NCBI GenBank assembly: GCA_030123625.1
Contig: CP126121.1
Location: forward strand, 391,001-455,000
Direction: 5' to 3'
DNA: 64,000 nucleotides
Origin: Nitrospira sp.
GTDB taxonomy: Bacteria > Nitrospirota > Nitrospiria > Nitrospirales > Nitrospiraceae
Shown: positions 1,336-62,787 of the stretch, piece after piece
How the letters are laid out: every line of letters starts with the position of its first letter
Numbering within the stretch: position 1 is the stretch's first letter
Notes under the pieces: model-generated
Told to the model about the DNA's origin: nothing
Seen by the model: the letters and a program-made list of their open reading frames with translations, nothing else
Databases searched by the model: none
Made by a program: the position numbers and the translations under genes

Positions 1336-2130
1336 GCCCCTGATCTTTACAGTCGACCTTCCTCAAGGTCAATCACATCAGCCCAGGTTGTAACAGACGG
1401 CAGGGAATTCACGGCCACGCCTCGTTGGCTGGCGATGTCCTGAAGACGACCTTGAAACCGCTGACGACCCGCCTCATCTTTTGGACCTGAGACAAGTCGA
1501 TAAACCGGCCTAGGTGAGCGATGCCGCCGAGTAAAACTTCGGAACTCCGAGGATAGGTTGACTGTGACACGGCTCAGTTATCCTCTATGAAGATTCAACA
1601 CACGATAAACAGGGAACCAGCAAAGTTTAGAGGAGCCGAAGAGAGAAAGCGGTTCAATAAACAAGCTCTCGACACTATTCTTTTCCCAACGACCACTTTA
1701 TTGTCAAATCGCCTCACACACCTACTTGTTCCTGTGTCGATTCCACCAGCGCTCCTGCGGTACGAAATTGTCCTAATCTATGGGAAAAGACTACATGTTC
1801 TATCATCGTGAAAATATTGAATTTAGCTCGCAATCAGTATGAGACTCTGCCCTCCTCGTACACATCACCAGTCATTCCCTTCTCGGCACTGATGATATTC
1901 CGGGGTTTTTCTCTACTCATTTTCCTAGTGCGGCGGCCCATATCTTGCGTAGCTGCCACGGTAACGTAATGAGGGATTCTGCTCTTCGGCATCTTCTTGG
2001 GTGAGCAGTCAGTTGAGCCATTCACCCATGGGCCTTCACATGAGATGTGCGCATCTCGCGTTGGACCGTTATGCCCATAACACTAATTAGTTTATTCTAA
2101 GTAATTGTGCAATATGGGAGGACTATTTGC
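1336..2130. other. gene-poor region upstream of the first FN3 protein
   Basis: I see no convincing gene in these 795 bp. The right half (from about 1710) is recognisably similar to about 3690-4118, upstream of the paralogous gene. Shared blocks include CACACCTACTTGTTCCTGT, TCTCTACTC and a GAGATG-N4-CATCTC palindrome. The left half (1336-1700) holds nothing I can assign. Confidence 0.6.
2042..2057. promoter_or_regulatory. palindrome conserved upstream of both FN3 paralogues (copy A)
   Basis: GAGATGTGCGCATCTC is a near-perfect dyad 74 bp before the ATG at 2131. The equivalent place before the second paralogue has GAGATGCGCGTATCTC. The dyad is kept while neighbouring bases differ, which suits an operator or a small RNA hairpin. 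Confidence 0.4.
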
Positions 2131-3417
2131 ATGAGCTGGGTAACTGCAATTGCCACTGTTCTTGTGCTGTGGTCTGGTACAGCGTGGGGGGCCACCTTGA
2201 AGTGGAACGCTAGCAGCGGGCCGGACTTAGCAGGATATCGCGTCTATCAATGCAGCCAGCTGCCATGCTTCCAATCAGCCGACACGGCGACGCTGCTCAG
2301 TACACTGGGAACCACCACTACTTTCAATATTGGAACACCAGCCGTGGTTCAGTACTATGTGGTCACAGCGTACAACTCTGCCAATGTCGAATCGGGCCCG
2401 AGCAACGTTGCCACCTATACCCCAGCCGGGACATCCCCTCCGCCAGCCGGGACTTCAACGCCCCCTCCCACGGTGACGCTGACCATTCTTGGATCGCCGA
2501 CTTCGGGTCAGCCCTGGACTGTTCAGGCGTACCCCGCCAATGTGGCGGGGACCGTTTCTGTGGAGTACTGGATCAACAACACCCTTGATCACATGGAGAA
2601 TGTCGCTCCCTATTGCCCATTCGACGGCGATGATGATGGCACGCATTGCGTGACGAGATTGAGGCCCTTCGGGTCCTATACCATTGAGGCGCGTGTGCGG
2701 AGCAATGGGACCGAAGTCGCTCGTCAGGCCATTATGGTTCAAGCATCCGCAACTCCTCCGCCAACTCCTTTGCCAACTCCCTCGGCAATTCCTCCGCCAA
2801 CTCCTCCGGCCACTTCCGGTCCCACGGTGACGCTGACCGTTCTTGGATCGCCGACTTCGGGTCAACCCTGGACTGTTCAGGCGTACCCCGCCAATGTGGC
2901 GGGGACCGTTTCTGTGGAGTACTGGATCAACAACACCCTTGATCACATGGAGAATGTCGCTCCCTATTGTCCGTTCGACGGCGATGATGATGGCACGCAT
3001 TGCGTGACGAGATTGAGGCCCTTCGGGTCCTATACCATTGAGGCGCGTGTGCGGAGCAACGGGACCGAAGTCGCTCGCGAGGCCATTATAGTTCAAGCAT
3101 CCGCAACTCCCCCGGCAACCTCCGGTCCCACGGTGACGCTGACCGTTCTTGGATCGCCGACGTCGGGTCAACCCTGGACCATTCAGGCATACCCCGCCAG
3201 CATGGCTGGGAGTGTTTCCGTGCAATTCCGGATCAACAACACCGTGAATCGCATTGAAGGTTTTGCCCCCTATTGCCCGTTCGATGGCGCTGACGATGGC
3301 ACGCATTGTCTTACGAAATTGAGGCCTTTCGGGTTCTACACTATTGAGGCGCGTGTGGTGAACAATGGGACCGAAGTCACTCGTCAGGTCATTGTCGTCA
3401 AAGCAAGTAGTCAGTAA
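2131..3417 (+). CDS. exported fibronectin-III-like protein with three C-terminal repeats (paralogue A)
   Basis: The 428-residue product starts at ATG 2131, chosen because GGGAGGAC lies 8-15 bases upstream and a clear signal peptide follows (MSWVTAIATV..GTAWGA, cleavage after about residue 21). Residues about 22-100 form an FN3-like domain (TLKWNASSGPDLAGYRVY ... YYVVTAYNSANVESGPSNV). A Pro/Thr linker then leads to three about 95-residue repeats (PTVTLTILGSP ... YCPFDG..DGTHC ... TIEARV). Each repeat has two Cys that could form a disulfide. It is a surface or periplasmic protein, possibly a ligand-binding or adhesion module; no enzymatic motif is visible. The next gene downstream is a shorter paralogue on the same strand. 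Confidence 0.85.
   Translation: MSWVTAIATVLVLWSGTAWGATLKWNASSGPDLAGYRVYQCSQLPCFQSADTATLLSTLGTTTTFNIGTPAVVQYYVVTAYNSANVESGPSNVATYTPAGTSPPPAGTSTPPPTVTLTILGSPTSGQPWTVQAYPANVAGTVSVEYWINNTLDHMENVAPYCPFDGDDDGTHCVTRLRPFGSYTIEARVRSNGTEVARQAIMVQASATPPPTPLPTPSAIPPPTPPATSGPTVTLTVLGSPTSGQPWTVQAYPANVAGTVSVEYWINNTLDHMENVAPYCPFDGDDDGTHCVTRLRPFGSYTIEARVRSNGTEVAREAIIVQASATPPATSGPTVTLTVLGSPTSGQPWTIQAYPASMAGSVSVQFRINNTVNRIEGFAPYCPFDGADDGTHCLTKLRPFGFYTIEARVVNNGTEVTRQVIVVKASSQ
2467..3414 (+). repeat. three tandem intragenic repeats (306-bp unit plus a 48-bp linker)
   Basis: Repeats start at 2467, 2821 and 3127. The last interval is 306 bp, as in the paralogue. The first is 354 bp because of an extra Pro/Thr-rich 48-bp linker. 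Repeats 1 and 2 differ at only about nine positions by eye, while repeat 3 is clearly diverged and resembles the terminal repeat of the paralogue. Confidence 0.85.
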
Positions 3418-4118
3418 TCCTGAAATTGGCCTTTCGACCAAAACAAAATACAGGGTCGCCTATTGTGGTCTTCTTCCGCTCGCTGTGTAATCCTGGGGAT
3501 TGACTGGTGTGGCCCGGCTGGGGGCCGACATCAATGCGGAGGACAAGTGGGATATGAGGGAGATGTACGTCTTGACCAGAGGAAAAACCATGGTATGCAT
3601 ACACCTGTCTGCAGCCAAGAAGTGCGCGTGAGGCATTGCCTCTTGACCGGAGTCTTCTGGATGAGCGACCCCCTTCATAAATAGTCCGAGCTCTCACACC
3701 TACTTGTTCCTGTATCGATTCCACTACCGCCCATTCTGTGCGATCTGTAGAATCTATAGGCAAATGACTACATCGCCTATCCTATAGAAAACATTGCATT
3801 TAACTTGTAATCGTCTACAGGACTCAGTGTTCCGCCTACACATGGTCAGTGATTCTCTTCTCGGCACGGCTGGATATTCTAAGCTTTTTCTCTACTCTCT
3901 TTGCTAGCGCAACGGCCCACATCTTGCTCATTCGCCACAGGAATGGGATGGATGCTTCTACTCTTCGGTCTCTTCTTGGCTGACCAAGTCGGTTGAGAAT
4001 TTATCCATAGATTCCCGAGATTCCCCAGATGAGATGCGCGTATCTCAAACGCAATTGTATACGCACACAACATACTAATGTATTTTATTTAAGTAAGTTG
4101 ATTGGAAAGGATATATGC
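3418..4118. other. gene-poor region between FN3 paralogues, partly a duplicate of the 1710-2130 region
   Basis: There is no convincing gene. From about 3690 the sequence aligns by eye with the region before paralogue A (CTCACACCTACTTGTTCCTG, TTCTCTTCTCGGCAC, TTTTTCTCTACTC, GATGAGATG), with substitutions and small gaps. The first 270 bp hold nothing I can assign. Confidence 0.6.
4031..4046. promoter_or_regulatory. palindrome conserved upstream of both FN3 paralogues (copy B)
   Basis: GAGATGCGCGTATCTC lies 73 bp before the ATG at 4119, matching in place and symmetry the dyad at 2042-2057. One side has changed, but a G-T pair would still form in RNA. Confidence 0.4.
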
Positions 4119-5057
4119 ATGGGTTGGATAACTGCAATTGTTACAGGGCTTGTGCTGTGGTCTGGTACAGCGTGGGGAGCCACATTGACGTGGAACGCTA
4201 GCAACGGACCGGACTTAGCAGGATATCGCGTCTATAAATGCAGCCAGCTCCCATGCTCGCAATCAGCTGACACGGCGATGCTGCTCAGTACACTGGGAAC
4301 CACTACTAGTTTCAATATTGGAACACCAGCCGTGGTTCAGTATTATGTGGTTACAGCGTACAATTCTGCCAACATCGAATCGAGCGCGAGCAACGTTGCC
4401 ACCTATACCCCAGCCGGGACTTCACTATCCTCTCCACCAGCCGGGTCTTCAACACCCGCTCCAACGGTGACGCTGACCATTCTTGGATCGCCGACTTCAG
4501 GTCAGTCTTGGACCGTTCAGGCGTACCCCGCCAATGTGGCGGGGACCGTTTCTGTGGAGTACTGGATCAACAACACCCTTGATCACATGGAGAATGCCGC
4601 CCCCTATTGCCCATTCGACGGCGCTGACGATGGTACCCATTGCGTGACGAGATTGAGACCTTTCGGGTTTTACACTATTGAGGCGCGTGTGCGGAGCAAT
4701 GGGACCGAAGTCGCTCGTCAGGCCATTATGGTTCAAGCATCCGCAACTCCCCCGGCAACCTCCGCTCCAAAAGTGACGCTGAGCGTTCTCGGATCGCCGA
4801 CGTCGGGTCAGCCCTGGACCGTTCAGGCGTATCCCGCCAACGTGGCGGGGACCGTTTCCGTGCAATTTTTAATCAACAACACCGTGAATCGCATCGAAGC
4901 TTTTGCTCCCTATTGCCCGTTCGACGGCGCTGACGATGGCGCACATTGTCTTACGAAATTGAAACCATTTGGGTTCTACACTCTTGAGGCGCGTGTGCTG
5001 AGCAATGGGACCGAAGTCACTCGTCAGGTCATTGTCGTCAAAGCAAGTAGCCAGTGA
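4119..5057 (+). CDS. exported fibronectin-III-like protein with two C-terminal repeats (paralogue B)
   Basis: The 312-residue product has its start set at ATG 4119 because GGAAAGG sits 9 bases upstream and the signal peptide (MGWITAIVTGLVLWSGTAWG) begins there. It has the same layout as the upstream paralogue: signal peptide, FN3-like domain (about 22-100), Ser/Pro linker, then two about 95-residue repeats carrying YCPFDGADDG..HC. It differs mainly in having two repeats instead of three. Function is unknown; export and FN3 architecture suggest an envelope or extracellular role. No gene follows on this strand for more than 6 kb. Confidence 0.85.
   Translation: MGWITAIVTGLVLWSGTAWGATLTWNASNGPDLAGYRVYKCSQLPCSQSADTAMLLSTLGTTTSFNIGTPAVVQYYVVTAYNSANIESSASNVATYTPAGTSLSSPPAGSSTPAPTVTLTILGSPTSGQSWTVQAYPANVAGTVSVEYWINNTLDHMENAAPYCPFDGADDGTHCVTRLRPFGFYTIEARVRSNGTEVARQAIMVQASATPPATSAPKVTLSVLGSPTSGQPWTVQAYPANVAGTVSVQFLINNTVNRIEAFAPYCPFDGADDGAHCLTKLKPFGFYTLEARVLSNGTEVTRQVIVVKASSQ
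4461..5054 (+). repeat. two tandem 306-bp intragenic repeats
   Basis: The units start at 4461 and 4767. The first matches repeats 1 and 2 of paralogue A (EYWINNTLDHMEN). The second matches repeat 3 of A (VNRIE.FAPYCPF), so the terminal repeat is positionally conserved. Confidence 0.8.
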
Positions 5058-38605: not shown

Positions 38606-40327
38606 TCACACACCGGTGGCGGGAACCGTGTACCGTTCCTCAATGGCGGAACGTATCATCTGTCGGCTGCGTTCGGCGCTGACGGACGGCTGTTGTTCAA
38701 TCCGCCGAACGGCATCGGCCAAATGGGAGTCTTTAATACCCTCCGACATCCATTTACTGTAATCCCCCTGTCGAAGGTGGTGTAACCACGTCTTCTCGTC
38801 GACGCCCTCCGCGAGTTGCATGAAGAGAATGAGATTGTGCGCGCGCAAGTTCAACAGATTGTCCGGACCACGAAAAAAAAAGCTTCGATCCTCCGGCAAC
38901 TCGCCTTCGGCATATTTCCGGCGATGGCGCCGACGGTCTGCTTCACAGGGGGCTATGCGCAATGTGCAGGGCAAATCGGTAGACCGTCGATCCCAAAAGA
39001 CCGCTTCACCATGATCCAGCGATGTAGATTCTACCTTCGGCAAAGGCAGGCCAAGCGTGCGACAAAATCCCGTGATCGTACCAGCCGGATCATCGCCTAA
39101 GGCCACCACCACATCCACCGGAAGAAGCACCGATTTCGCGACATGGTCCGGGTGCACGGTGACATACACCATGCCGGTCAAATCTTTTGCCAGCACAGCT
39201 TGCACCGGTTGCCAGTCCCGAGGCAGTAAATGGTGCGTTTCATCGACGAGAATCCAATGGGGCCGACCGGATTTGGCCCGACGCTCCTGAAGGGCGGGCA
39301 AGAGAGCAAGGAAAAAGGCGGGACGATCTTGTAACGGCAAGCCCACGAGATTGATGATCACATTCGTGTCCGGACTTTCCAGCGCGGTCAAAATCTCCGT
39401 CATCCCCGGCCCCCGTTGCGGAGTCCCAAACATGACCGCTCCCGCAAACCCTTCGTAGTCTCCTTCAGGGTCGATGACACAAATCTGATACCCTTGCGCT
39501 ATCACACGCTCAAGAATCCCGGTGGCCAATGTCGATTTGCCGCTTCCCGAGGAGCCCGCCAACAACACGTTAAGTCCTGCGGCAGGTATCGACACCTCCT
39601 CACCGGTCCGGCGCATACCGATCAGGACATTGCGGCGACTCGCGCTGAACGGAGACACAGTAAGATCATGCGACACCAGTTCATCAATGACTTCGGCGAC
39701 TCCCTGTCCAGCCGCACCAATGGTGACCCAATCGGCGATGTCTTTGAGTGTCTGGACGGCGTTCGCTACAGCCACTGCATATTCACACTGATTGAGCAGG
39801 GCATGATCATTTTCCGCATCCCCGATCGCCACGACGTTGCGCGGCGATAAGCCTATCTCTTGCAATGCGGCCACAAGACCGCTGGCTTTGTTGATGCCGG
39901 ATGGGACGACCATGACGGAGTCGCGATTGAAAATAACTTGCAGTTCAAGACCCAGATCTCGAATGACCTCGAGCAGCGTCACCTCATGCGGACGAACCGT
40001 CCCGACAATGGAGTTTCCGAACGAAAGCTCGGGAACCCGCCGGCGGCGCAGCTCGTCGATGAACGCCGGAGGAATCGGAGGGGCCAACATCGTATGTTCG
40101 CGTGTCGCGGGACGATAGAGCACACCGCCGTTGTCGGCAACGACTCGTTCGCACAGCCCGATTTCGGGAAAGACGTCCAGAATATCCGGCAGCTGCCGTC
40201 CGGTCACCAGAATGATTTTCCGCCCCGATTGGATGAGGCGCTCAAGGGCGGCGATCGTCTTGCGTTCCACTCGGCCATCGACGGCCAGCGTGTTGTCGTA
40301 ATCCGTCGCGACGGCAACATATCTCAT
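38606..40327 (-). CDS. HAD-family phosphatase fused to a P-loop ATPase
   Basis: The 573-residue protein joins two domains. Residues 1-220 are a HAD-IIB/Cof-type phosphatase: the nucleophile motif is DYDNT (residues 9-13), then VTGR, a Lys before GLVAAL, and GDAENDHALL as motif 4. From about 230 a P-loop domain follows, with Walker A GSSGSGKST near 260, Walker B HWILVDETHH near 350, then PWGLP-type and C-terminal segments. The P-loop part resembles HerA/FtsK/VirB4-like ATPases rather than kinases. The role is unknown: a nucleotide- or sugar-phosphate sensor coupled to a DNA- or envelope-acting ATPase is possible. No signal peptide. Confidence 0.85.
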   Translation of the reverse strand: MRYVAVATDYDNTLAVDGRVERKTIAALERLIQSGRKIILVTGRQLPDILDVFPEIGLCERVVADNGGVLYRPATREHTMLAPPIPPAFIDELRRRRVPELSFGNSIVGTVRPHEVTLLEVIRDLGLELQVIFNRDSVMVVPSGINKASGLVAALQEIGLSPRNVVAIGDAENDHALLNQCEYAVAVANAVQTLKDIADWVTIGAAGQGVAEVIDELVSHDLTVSPFSASRRNVLIGMRRTGEEVSIPAAGLNVLLAGSSGSGKSTLATGILERVIAQGYQICVIDPEGDYEGFAGAVMFGTPQRGPGMTEILTALESPDTNVIINLVGLPLQDRPAFFLALLPALQERRAKSGRPHWILVDETHHLLPRDWQPVQAVLAKDLTGMVYVTVHPDHVAKSVLLPVDVVVALGDDPAGTITGFCRTLGLPLPKVESTSLDHGEAVFWDRRSTDLPCTLRIAPCEADRRRHRRKYAEGELPEDRSFFFRGPDNLLNLRAHNLILFMQLAEGVDEKTWLHHLRQGDYSKWMSEGIKDSHLADAVRRIEQQPSVSAERSRQMIRSAIEERYTVPATGV

Positions 40328-40452: not shown

Positions 40453-41016
40453 CTAACTTCCCTGCACTCGAGTCCCTTCCCAGAAGGTATATGGCCGAAA
40501 GCCATAGTACCCATACCCATAGTACGGATGGTACGGATAAAAGTTGCTTGTATGCTTGCTCCACAATGTCATATCCCGGATGGCCACAATGGGCAGCTCA
40601 GATGATACCGGGTCAGACGATTTTGAGGATTCTCCCTCAATCTCACCGATGATGGTGACTTTCGATCCCTTTTCGAAGATGGCAGGATCGATGATCTCCT
40701 GCCGAGTATCCCACGCCAAAAATCTCCCCTGCGACGCTGCCTTGTTGTCCACCTCAGGCATATGATCCTTATTCAACGGCAGTTGCAGCACTTCGAGTTT
40801 CGTCCGATCGCCTTGGCGAACGGCACTCAGTACTTCCCCTCCCCATACCACGGTCTGCCCTCGATAGGTTTCCGGAGAGTGTCTCACTTGATCATACGAT
40901 AGCTGTTCATTGACTTGCTTCACCAGATGATCCGGAATGACCTGATATCGGTTACACCCGCTCACGACAACCGCGAGGAGCGCGCATCCGATCCAGAACC
41001 CAACATTGACTCTCAT
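40453..41016 (-). CDS. Slp-family outer-membrane lipoprotein
   Basis: The 187-residue protein starts at ATG 41016 with AGAGGTG upstream. The signal ends in a lipobox (VVVSGC, Cys near 21). The mature part has VIPDHLVKQVNEQLSYDQVRHSPETYRGQTVVWGGEV and a second beta segment (KGSKVTIIGEIEGE), the Slp pattern, and ends in a Tyr-rich tail (YPYHPYYGYGYYGFRPYTFW). Slp lipoproteins are starvation- or acid-induced outer-membrane proteins. It closes a minus-strand set with two PRC-barrel genes (gaps 47-63 bp), each with its own ribosome site. Confidence 0.9.
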   Translation of the reverse strand: MRVNVGFWIGCALLAVVVSGCNRYQVIPDHLVKQVNEQLSYDQVRHSPETYRGQTVVWGGEVLSAVRQGDRTKLEVLQLPLNKDHMPEVDNKAASQGRFLAWDTRQEIIDPAIFEKGSKVTIIGEIEGESSKSSDPVSSELPIVAIRDMTLWSKHTSNFYPYHPYYGYGYYGFRPYTFWEGTRVQGS

Positions 41017-41079
41017 AGAGCACCTCTTCTCGTAGAGCAGCAATCAGCGAGGCGTCGTATAGACGCCTCGCCCACTCTT

Positions 41080-41751
41080 TTACCGCTTGCTGCTCGGATG
41101 GTCGCCTTCATAACCCGGAGCCGGACCCGGCGGAGGTCCCGATGATCCAAAGCCACCCACGGATTCAAACGGAAGGCCTGGGGCGCCTGGACCTTCGCCC
41201 TTTGGCTTCGGTTGCTCGCGAAGCTTATTGATCTCACCCATGTACTGGGAGACTTCCGGTGACATATCTTTGGAGTAGACGGAACTCGCGATCGGATACA
41301 AATCTTTTTTGGAGGCATTCAACGTCAGATGGCCCTTTTCCTGTTTGAACTGGCTCCACTGGATAGGCAGCTGATCTTTTGTCTCTTCCAACTCAAGGAC
41401 GGCATATTGAATCTTTCCCGTCTTGGTGTCCTTCAGGACCTTCTCGATGGTGCCTAAGGTTTCACCCTTCTTATTTTTAACGGTTTGATCCAACGGTCCT
41501 CCCTTGTCGTCGACCAACTTACCGCGAAGAACCGGTACAACGTCATATTTCCCGACAATCCCCTCTCGGCCTCCGGTCATATCGGTCGCTTGTTTCTCGA
41601 AGGACGATTCCGACTGATTCATGTTTTGATCGACCATCGCGTCACCGGGTCGCTCACTGCGGGTACCCTCGGCGAGGCCCCAAACCGGTGTCAGCACTAT
41701 CGCGGCGGCAATGAGCATCATACGGCCCAATCCATTACTCTCCTTCTTCAT
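41080..41751 (-). CDS. PRC-barrel domain protein, exported
   Basis: The 223-residue protein starts at ATG 41751, with GGAGG five bases upstream and a signal peptide (MLIAAAIVLTPVWGLAEG). The PRC-barrel-type core (about 68-150) reads LRGKLVDDKGGPLDQTVKNKKGETLGTIEKVLKDTKTGKIQYAVLELEE. A Gly/Pro-rich tail follows (GGFGSSGPPPGPAPGYEGDH). PRC-barrels bind proteins or RNA and are common in envelope and stress proteins; here export makes an envelope role likely. It lies between Slp and a longer PRC-barrel gene. Confidence 0.88.
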   Translation of the reverse strand: MKKESNGLGRMMLIAAAIVLTPVWGLAEGTRSERPGDAMVDQNMNQSESSFEKQATDMTGGREGIVGKYDVVPVLRGKLVDDKGGPLDQTVKNKKGETLGTIEKVLKDTKTGKIQYAVLELEETKDQLPIQWSQFKQEKGHLTLNASKKDLYPIASSVYSKDMSPEVSQYMGEINKLREQPKPKGEGPGAPGLPFESVGGFGSSGPPPGPAPGYEGDHPSSKR

Positions 41752-41798
41752 GGCTACCTCCAATCTATCATTTATGAACAGTATAGAATCCTGGACGT

Positions 41799-42617
41799 TC
41801 AATTGGTGGACGTTTTGCCGGTTGCAACCCCTTCAGGAATTTGAAGCCCGGCGGACTGGGAAAGCTTCATAATGGCGTGCATCATATGTTCGGTCGCATC
41901 CGTGGTCTGCTGTTTTTCTCCATGCTCGATCGCTTCGCCCAATGCATAGACGCCTTCGTTGAGCCGCTCATTATGGCCGCTCCGTTGCGCACGCTTGGCC
42001 GAATCGAGCGATTGCTTGGCATGTGTCACCAACGCCTCGGTTTTTCCTTGCTTTCCCGACGACTCCGCTTCCATGGCATGCTTCAATGCTTCCTGCACCG
42101 TGTTCTTAAAATCCACGCTTGCCTCTTCCTTCATCGTCTGGGATACTTCGGCGGACAAGGAATGGGATGCACCCTTCGAGCTATTCGGAACCAAATCGTA
42201 GAACTGATAGACCACCACGGCCCACTCGGGACGCGACATGTCGGGCCACTTATCTTTGTCGAATCCCGGCGCATTTTTCAGTCGCTCTTCCTTCACATTC
42301 AAAATGAAATGTTCCTTGTCGCTGCTCAGCACTAAAAGCTCCCACGGAACCGCAAAGTACTTGTCGCCCACACCAAGAAACCCACCGAAGGAAAGGACGG
42401 CATATTCGATATAGCCTCCGCTTCGCCAGTTGATGACCAAGTCCTTGATCTCCCCCAGGTTTTTCCCCTCCAAATTCGTCACTTCCTTACCGATCAGGTT
42501 CGTCGCTTTTGTCACTCCCACTAATTGATCTGCATAGACGATTTCTCCTTGTGACGCGACGATCACCGCCACTGCTGCGATGCCGAATGCAAGCAGCACA
42601 ATTCGTATCCTCCCCAT
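41799..42617 (-). CDS. PRC-barrel protein with helical C-terminal half, exported
   Basis: The 272-residue protein starts at ATG 42617 with AAGGAGG and good spacing. A signal peptide ends near VYADQ. The PRC-barrel (about 35-115) contains NLIGKEVTNLEGKNLGEIKDLVIN and GYIEYAVLSFGGFLGVGDKYFAVPWELL. The rest (about 150-272) is helical and charged (EVSQTMKEEASVDFKNTV ... AKQSLDSAKRAQRSGHNERL ... HMMHAIMKLSQ), like small metal-binding or cytochrome-like helical repeats without Cys. A degraded copy sits just upstream (42705-43210). Exact role unknown. Confidence 0.9.
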   Translation of the reverse strand: MGRIRIVLLAFGIAAVAVIVASQGEIVYADQLVGVTKATNLIGKEVTNLEGKNLGEIKDLVINWRSGGYIEYAVLSFGGFLGVGDKYFAVPWELLVLSSDKEHFILNVKEERLKNAPGFDKDKWPDMSRPEWAVVVYQFYDLVPNSSKGASHSLSAEVSQTMKEEASVDFKNTVQEALKHAMEAESSGKQGKTEALVTHAKQSLDSAKRAQRSGHNERLNEGVYALGEAIEHGEKQQTTDATEHMMHAIMKLSQSAGLQIPEGVATGKTSTN

Positions 42618-61665: not shown

Positions 61666-62787
61666 ATGAAGATTGCTCAAGTCGCGCCGTTGCGGGAAAG
61701 CGTTCCTCCTCAACGTCATGGAGGCACAGAACGTGTCGTTTCTTATTTGACGGAAGAACTCGTGCGCCTCGGTCATGAGGTGACGCTGTTCGCAGCCGGT
61801 GATTCTTCCACCTCGGCCGCTCTGTCCGCCGCCTGCCCGTCCTCCTTACGCTCCACTCCGAAGATATTGTACCCGGACGCTCCCTGGTCTCTCCTCCTTG
61901 AGCGTGCGTTCGGGACCTACGCCGAGGACTTCGATCTCATCCATTCACACATCGATCTCTTGGGTTTTCCTCTCGCCCGTCGGTGCCGCACGCCGGTGTT
62001 GACGACATTATATTGTCGGCTCGATTTGCCGGAGCTGATTCCGGTGTTTGAGCGATTTTCCGAGTTACCTGTCGTCTCCGTATCGGAGACTCAGCGCGGG
62101 CCGATGCCTGGGATCAATTGGCAGAACACCATCCATCCGGGACTGCCTCGCCATCTGTATTCTATGCATCCAAATCTCGGCAGGTACCTCGCATTCTTGG
62201 GCCGAATCTCTCCCGACAGAGGCGTGGAGCAGGCGATCGAGCTGGCCAAACGCACTGATATGCCGATTCGGATCGCGGCCAGGGTGGACCCGGCGGATCG
62301 GAATTATTTTGAACATATCGCACCATTATTCGAACATCCGTTAGTGGAATATGTCGGTGAAGTCACCGACGGCGAGAAAGAGGATTTTCTCGGTGAGGCG
62401 TATGCGTTGATCTGCCCTGTCGAGCGGCCGGACCCCTTCGGCTTGGTCTTGATCGAAGCGCTCGCGTGCGGGACGCCTGTGCTGGCCTATCGACGGGAAG
62501 GCGTTTCAGAAATAGTGGATCACGGATCGACGGGATATTTCAGCGACACCTTGGAGGAGATGGTCCACACAGTGGCGTGGGTACCCAATATCGATCGCCG
62601 CCGCTGCCGATCAGCCTTCGAAGATCGGTTTACCGCCGAACGCATGGTGCAGGAGTATCTCTTGTTGTATCAACGATCGATGCACAAAGAAAAAGACCAG
62701 TCGGCTGATCAAGGTTCCTACCGCGTCATGCGGCAGTTTCCGCATTCAGCGGCCGCTGAGGAGGCCCGAGTCGAGGCAGCGGCCTGA
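61666..62787 (+). CDS. glycosyltransferase family 4 protein
   Basis: The 373-residue protein starts at ATG 61666 after GAAAGGA. It has a GT-B fold pattern: N-terminal IAQVAPLRESVPPQRHGGTERVVSYLTEELVRLGHEVTLFAAGDS with the Gly-rich GGTE, a linker, and a C-terminal half with LGRISPDRGVEQAIELAKRTDMPIRIAA. EVTDGEKEDFLGEAYALICPVERPDPFGLVLIEALACGTPVLAYRREGVSEI carries the EX7E-type motif. It transfers a sugar from a nucleotide donor to an unknown acceptor, probably for an envelope glycan. It follows the RND gene by 114 bp; no direct link is evident. Confidence 0.92.
   Translation: MKIAQVAPLRESVPPQRHGGTERVVSYLTEELVRLGHEVTLFAAGDSSTSAALSAACPSSLRSTPKILYPDAPWSLLLERAFGTYAEDFDLIHSHIDLLGFPLARRCRTPVLTTLYCRLDLPELIPVFERFSELPVVSVSETQRGPMPGINWQNTIHPGLPRHLYSMHPNLGRYLAFLGRISPDRGVEQAIELAKRTDMPIRIAARVDPADRNYFEHIAPLFEHPLVEYVGEVTDGEKEDFLGEAYALICPVERPDPFGLVLIEALACGTPVLAYRREGVSEIVDHGSTGYFSDTLEEMVHTVAWVPNIDRRRCRSAFEDRFTAERMVQEYLLLYQRSMHKEKDQSADQGSYRVMRQFPHSAAAEEARVEAAA

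Follow-up and report, generated by a model that had tools for sequence, protein, structure and literature searches.

The published account of the trehalose operon msc-gt-tpsp of Thermoproteus tenax, in the parts on which we draw, describes an MscS channel, a glycosyltransferase and a synthase-phosphatase (PMC3634074). A protein of the same archaeon, OrfY, has a solved structure (4cso) to which its depositors gave the molecule name 'ORFY PROTEIN, TRANSCRIPTION FACTOR', and we found no description of OrfY, or of the domain family DUF5752, in the open-licence literature. A search of that literature likewise returned no description of a protein joining a HAD phosphatase to a HerA ATPase, although public records hold such proteins under the name 'HAD-IIB family hydrolase' or similar, which leaves well over half of their length unexplained. 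The Nitrospira protein analyzed here consists of parts of known kinds in a combination that we did not find described in open-licence sources.

The gene lies in a window of 64,000 nucleotides, the whole stretch of DNA that was analyzed, and is present in one copy in the host genome (a single contig of 4.69 Mb). Its reading frame begins with ATG, contains no internal stops and is bounded exactly by positions 38606 and 40327 of the minus strand. The AlphaFold model of the protein has a mean pLDDT of 89.3 and a pTM of 0.77, and the nearest relatives in the named genome collection are from Nitrospira MAGs. The three-domain architecture is secure; function and substrate we infer. The features are as follows:

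38606..40327, minus strand: whole gene, 573 aa, HAD-IIB phosphatase, HerA-like ATPase and a single DUF5752/OrfY-type unit
39665..40327, minus strand: HAD-IIB phosphatase domain, residues 1-221, from profiles and fold
40289..40303, minus strand: HAD motif I, DYDNT (D9, D11), with D9, D11 and T13 invariant in 78/78 sequences
39806..39823, minus strand: HAD motif IV, GDAEND, residues 169-174, with D170 and D174 invariant in 78/78
38930..39643, minus strand: HerA-like P-loop ATPase core, residues 229-466, from PF01935 and fold
39530..39556, minus strand: Walker A, GSSGSGKST, residues 258-266
39239..39253, minus strand: Walker B, ILVDE, residues 359-363
38627..38902, minus strand: C-terminal helical domain, residues 476-567, corresponding by homology to a single unit of the DUF5752/OrfY fold, which has two

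A sequence-only reading had described a HAD-IIB phosphatase joined to a P-loop ATPase, and profiles, the structural model and a comparison of 78 sequences all bear this out. Its division of the chain into 220 residues of HAD with the rest ATPase holds for the HAD domain and for an ATPase with Walker motifs, but a third, helical domain occupies residues ~476-566. The HAD-IIB part (residues ~5-219) matches PF08282 with 109 bits and TIGR01484 (HAD-IIB) with 86.2 bits against a cutoff of 41.8, and the nearest solved fold is that of PH1421 (1wr8; Z 27.5, rmsd 2.5 over 221 residues, 29% identity). Motifs I to IV of the HAD-IIB class (DxDxT, T/S, K and GDxxxD) are all found, with D9 in motif I presumably the nucleophile. 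N66 and K147 are as invariant as D9, D11, T13, D170 and D174 among the 78 complete homologs, a set that includes the window protein, while position 42 carries T in 76 of them and S in the other 2. From these motifs the domain is predicted to be a phosphatase. The models that score best against it are those for archaeal phosphoglycolate phosphatase and for Cof-type proteins, the score to the archaeal-type phosphoglycolate phosphatase equivalog (TIGR01487) being 106.8 bits, below the cutoff of 122.75. Trehalose-6-phosphate phosphatase and mannosyl-3-phosphoglycerate phosphatase, which are also HAD-IIB enzymes, are both among the structural matches of the fusion model. The trehalose-6-phosphate phosphatase family PF02358 is absent from the best 25 of the protein's 38 Pfam matches, and a search of the host genome with it returned one place only, elsewhere (C1:2745071-2745640).

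Homologs of the HAD domain alone occur at seven loci (L095, L096, L128, L129, which is shortened, L138, L139 and L083), and these stand-alone versions are possibly an ancestor or a split form of the fusion. A glycosyltransferase gene neighbors four of the seven, drawn from two pairs of related genomes, and is of family GT20 in L138 and L139 and of family GT4 in L095 and L096. The window itself contains a GT4 glycosyltransferase gene at 61666-62787 whose product is ~45% identical to the GT4 enzyme that adjoins the HAD-only genes of L095/L096 and that is also encoded close to the fusion in L085.

For the ATPase part, PF01935 scores 33.5 bits against a cutoff of 23.2. Residues 229-466 of the model superimpose on HerA 9x1m with Z 20.9 (rmsd 3.0, 229 residues aligned) and residues 233-464 on HerA 4d2i with Z 20.7. 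Of the two labels given in the sequence-only reading, HerA fits better than VirB4-like, as those ATPase structural matches with titles naming the molecule are HerA. The N-terminal HAS barrel of HerA is absent, residues 1-221 being HAD and the HerA match beginning at 229, and the fusion lacks the equivalent of ~170 residues of the HerA span (229 residues aligned over HerA residues 151-552). G258, G263 and K264 in the Walker A region are invariant in 78/78, and in alignment A1 the Walker B glutamate E363 is invariant and D362 is kept in at least 90% of sequences.

A scan of genome contigs found 262 encoded relatives, from which 80 loci were kept. Their labels include Nitrospira, Cyanobacteria, Planctomycetes (anammox genera among them), alpha-, beta- and gammaproteobacteria, Desulfobacterales, Acidobacteria, Chloroflexi, Ignavibacteria and Polyangiaceae. 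The fusion is spread patchily over about ten phyla. The 78-sequence set comprises the window protein and 77 complete relatives, the incomplete L007, L061 and L036 being left out. The same domain order recurs across these distant phyla with the HAD catalytic set and the Walker A GK kept in 78/78, and no loss of catalytic residues was seen on alignment: both enzyme domains are complete with intact motifs. Because all 78 share the join together with these invariant residues, the fusion is neither a chance event nor an artifact of joining. Nine further sequences (from 15, with L133-L137 and L188 not counted; the nine include L181-L184, which are closely related) also keep the trio of domains and the catalytic residues, except that Walker B D362 is E in L126. 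Within Nitrospira, matches occur in 23 of 59 genomes. They are close in 8 (one match being split into two pieces), ~30% identical over the same architecture in 12, and weak or partial in 3. Prevalence was 9/249 in a Pseudomonadota sample, 3/146 in a cyanobacterial one and 9/149 in an acidobacterial one, counts that include the seed genome and HAD-only matches. In the plasmid collection, 12 of 72,556 records carry relatives, including a Nonomuraea record.

The last ~90 residues of the fusion have strongly conserved aromatic and acidic positions. Against the Pfam DUF5752 model (PF19027) this tail scores 19.0 bits, below the cutoff of 23, a weakness explained by DUF5752 consisting of two tandem units where the fusion has one. 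In a profile comparison by hhalign, the tail profile aligned with the second unit of 22 DUF5752 proteins at E 4.2e-10 and with the first at E 2.9e-5. The tail-only profile gave 18 matches in 118 Nitrospirota genomes, 9 in frames of 577-622 aa, which are the fusion family, and 9 in shorter ones of 240-311 aa, 7 of the latter coinciding with places called by the DUF5752 model, and the divergent family member L123 passes the Pfam cutoff (24.2 versus 23 bits). A separate structural model of the tail (pLDDT 87.8) matches OrfY (4cso) with Z 9.5 and rmsd 2.9 over 92 residues, the next entry having Z 5.1. Chance alone can bring helical domains to Z 13, and the homology therefore rests chiefly on the profile comparisons, in which the tail finds 4cso by hmmsearch at E 3e-4, the corresponding value for a full DUF5752 protein being E 3.5e-28. 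By these sequence comparisons, the tail is homologous to one DUF5752 unit, which offers a first functional handle both on the fusion family and on DUF5752.

In all 25 full-length Nitrospirota DUF5752 loci counted (L097-L121, from 26 full-length places of which 25 had a locus, the weak or partial L122-L126 being left out), a trehalose-synthesis gene lies within ~1.5 kb of DUF5752. TreT is the neighbor in 20 loci and TreS in the remaining 5; MscS is also present in 13, OtsB in 3 and TreY in 2. The TreT and TreS queries came from L117 and L104, whose matches to them are therefore self-hits. Example neighbors were confirmed by profile (TreT_GT1, treS_nterm, T6PP, MscS domains and TreY). In L105, L106 and L110, DUF5752 and an MscS-type channel are encoded by a single frame flanked by OtsB and TreT, a fusion confirmed by profile for L106, and TreT also adjoins DUF5752 outside the Nitrospirota, in L195 of the Pseudomonadota sample. 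Queries for TreT, TreS, TreY, OtsB and GT20 matched none of 40 random 20-kb control regions from seven fusion-carrying genomes, the debranching-enzyme query being the only one to match any (2/40). The host genome has such a locus far from the window (C1:761176-764159), where a DUF5752 gene adjoins a TreS-like frame and TreT. The TreT/TreS and MscS neighbors suggest that DUF5752 is a trehalose or osmotic-stress domain. The sequence-only reading held that function could not be guessed; the tail that it missed supplies a lead, because relatives of this domain adjoin trehalose-synthesis genes in 25 of 25 loci.

The surroundings of the fusion gene are less uniform. In Nitrospira it lies downstream of Slp and PRC-barrel genes that share its strand, its immediate neighbor in the window being:

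40453..41043, minus strand: Slp-family outer-membrane lipoprotein gene, 125 bases upstream of the fusion

An Slp gene also precedes the fusion in L003, L004 and L005, and a shared transcript of the two genes within Nitrospira is possible; a promoter and terminator scan returned nothing on the minus strand. The window's upstream stretch (40453-42617) holds Slp and two PRC-barrel genes, one of them with an extra small metal-binding (SMBP) domain. Farther away, two adjacent genes (window 2107-3417 and 4029-5057) encode products in which repeated near-identical blocks were seen by eye, probably the result of recent internal duplication. Clustering of 736 predicted neighbor ORFs from the 80 loci, with Pfam scans of 243 of them (124 + 119, a hand-cut subset of 446 with Mesorhizobium and Nitrospira duplicates thinned), revealed no conserved family-wide partner gene. 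The widest cluster, of short-chain dehydrogenases, covers 17 loci, mostly Mesorhizobium, with close orthologs (>55% identity) in 11 Mesorhizobium and 2 Nitrosomonas loci, and in many Mesorhizobium loci the dehydrogenase gene is immediately upstream of the fusion. The earlier statement that the gene has no relevant neighbor thus largely holds, no gene family recurring beside it in the family as a whole. The absence of a conserved partner would be expected if the fusion is a self-contained enzyme.

Six of the 80 fusion loci have trehalose or glycogen genes nearby, and two of these six supplied query sequences; among random regions of comparable total length the figure is 2 of 40, a nonsignificant difference (Fisher p 0.72). 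Co-occurrence with TreT among Nitrospira genomes was not significant either for close members (7/8 versus 26/51 of the others, p 0.067) or for divergent ones (6/12, p 0.75). The idea that the fusion fills a missing trehalose-phosphatase step was rejected: the host genome has TreT and its own, separate TPP-type gene, so no missing phosphatase step calls for the fusion. A stress-island context was also considered, using tblastn with 21 stress-type or window-neighbor queries, and no convincing excess was found; among five plasmid records inspected, three look stress-rich (Synechococcus, Paraburkholderia and Agrobacterium).

We tentatively favor, at somewhat short of an even chance, a reading in which ATP controls the fusion's phosphatase activity toward a sugar- or osmolyte-phosphate, within osmotic or general-stress (trehalose-type) sugar metabolism. 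Besides the conserved trio of domains and the relatives of the tail, this reading draws on the trehalose-6-phosphate and mannosyl-3-phosphoglycerate phosphatases of the HAD-IIB class, on the glycosyltransferases beside HAD-only homologs and on the lack of a conserved partner. The HAD domain would take phosphate off a sugar- or osmolyte-phosphate, while the ATPase core, probably a HerA-like ring, would bind and hydrolyze ATP in order to switch the phosphatase or bring it into position, and not to pump DNA. The OrfY/DUF5752-type tail would tie the phosphatase to stress-sugar metabolism, docking the protein to a partner or sensing the osmotic or sugar state. Substrate class, ring assembly and the switch role of ATP we infer from the fold, and the earlier idea of a chain that could sense a sugar- or nucleotide-phosphate, or hydrolysis of such a compound coupled to ATP use, would be compatible with that fold. 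The docking role and the stress or osmolyte assignment would follow from the tail's relatives, provided that the trehalose link carries over from DUF5752 to the fusion family. The points against the stress-sugar reading are the nonsignificant association tests, the unconvincing excess of stress genes, the host's own TPP-type gene, the sub-threshold Pfam score of the tail and the 'transcription factor' label of 4cso.

That label is what speaks for a regulator whose OrfY-type tail acts on gene expression with the HAD domain as ligand sensor, but it is the depositors' own, with no paper on OrfY found in open-licence sources, and the strict retention of all HAD catalytic residues would be unusual for a pure sensor; we regard this as very improbable. 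Alternatively, the protein could be a house-cleaning phosphatase of phosphoglycolate or sugar-phosphate type, the ATPase and tail being only a scaffold or oligomerization device with no role in stress. The best HAD scores (archaeal phosphoglycolate phosphatase, Cof-type models and PH1421) agree with this, as does the existence of HAD-only homologs, which implies that the domain may act alone. The phosphoglycolate phosphatase score is nevertheless below its cutoff, and every aligned sequence keeps the Walker A GK and Walker B E, for which a mere scaffold would have no use, so that we consider this explanation unlikely.

The fusion could also be a DNA-linked effector of HerA type, whose ring engages DNA while the HAD domain, at the site that HerA complexes use for docking SIR2- and NurA-type effectors, hydrolyzes nucleotides or DNA-end phosphates in defense or repair. 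The ATPase core is clearly HerA (Z ~20), with anti-phage HerA complexes (8woc, 8xav) among its matches; there is a weak PADLOC match to mad8 (residues 234-309, 39 bits), and the distribution of the fusion is patchy. Set against these are the missing HAS barrel and missing part of the HerA span and a tail whose relatives are linked to trehalose and not to DNA. Among the neighbors, no NurA or SIR2 gene appears in the 17 PADLOC families upstream or in the 25 of 102 families listed downstream, and these listed families also include no recurrent defense genes beyond generic helicase and kinase matches, each found for 3 members. Such an effector seems to us quite unlikely. To return to the ATP-controlled phosphatase, the homology of the tail opens to testing the way in which cells link ATP and osmotic state with stress-sugar synthesis, and, if this reading is true, a HerA-family ATPase would act outside DNA processing. 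A broader version, somewhat unlikely at present, is that a HerA-type ATPase moved from DNA work to become the ATP-driven switch of a metabolic phosphatase in osmotic or desiccation sugar metabolism. An OrfY/DUF5752-type module, in use for MscS channels and trehalose synthases as well, would direct it there, the whole being an undescribed stress-signaling module common to distant phyla.

Compared with known systems, the fusion shares its ATPase core and both Walker motifs with HerA of archaeal HerA-NurA, SIR2-HerA and other defense complexes, but has HAD in place of the HAS barrel, is without a large part of the HerA span and has no NurA or SIR2 partner among the neighbors listed. With HAD-IIB phosphatases of Cof/SPP type (PH1421, trehalose-6-phosphate phosphatase and MpgP) it has the fold and all catalytic motifs in common, although those matched are stand-alone proteins and the Nitrospira enzyme has an ATPase and a tail on the same chain. 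The T. tenax msc-gt-tpsp operon (PMC3634074), whose text in the parts drawn on names no ATPase and no HAD-HerA fusion, differs from the Nitrospira fusion in this respect but resembles the DUF5752 neighborhoods in bringing MscS, a glycosyltransferase and a trehalose-phosphate phosphatase into one osmolyte unit. DUF5752/OrfY (4cso) proteins, finally, have two units and stand alone or are fused to an MscS-type channel, whereas the fusion carries a single homologous unit on an enzyme.
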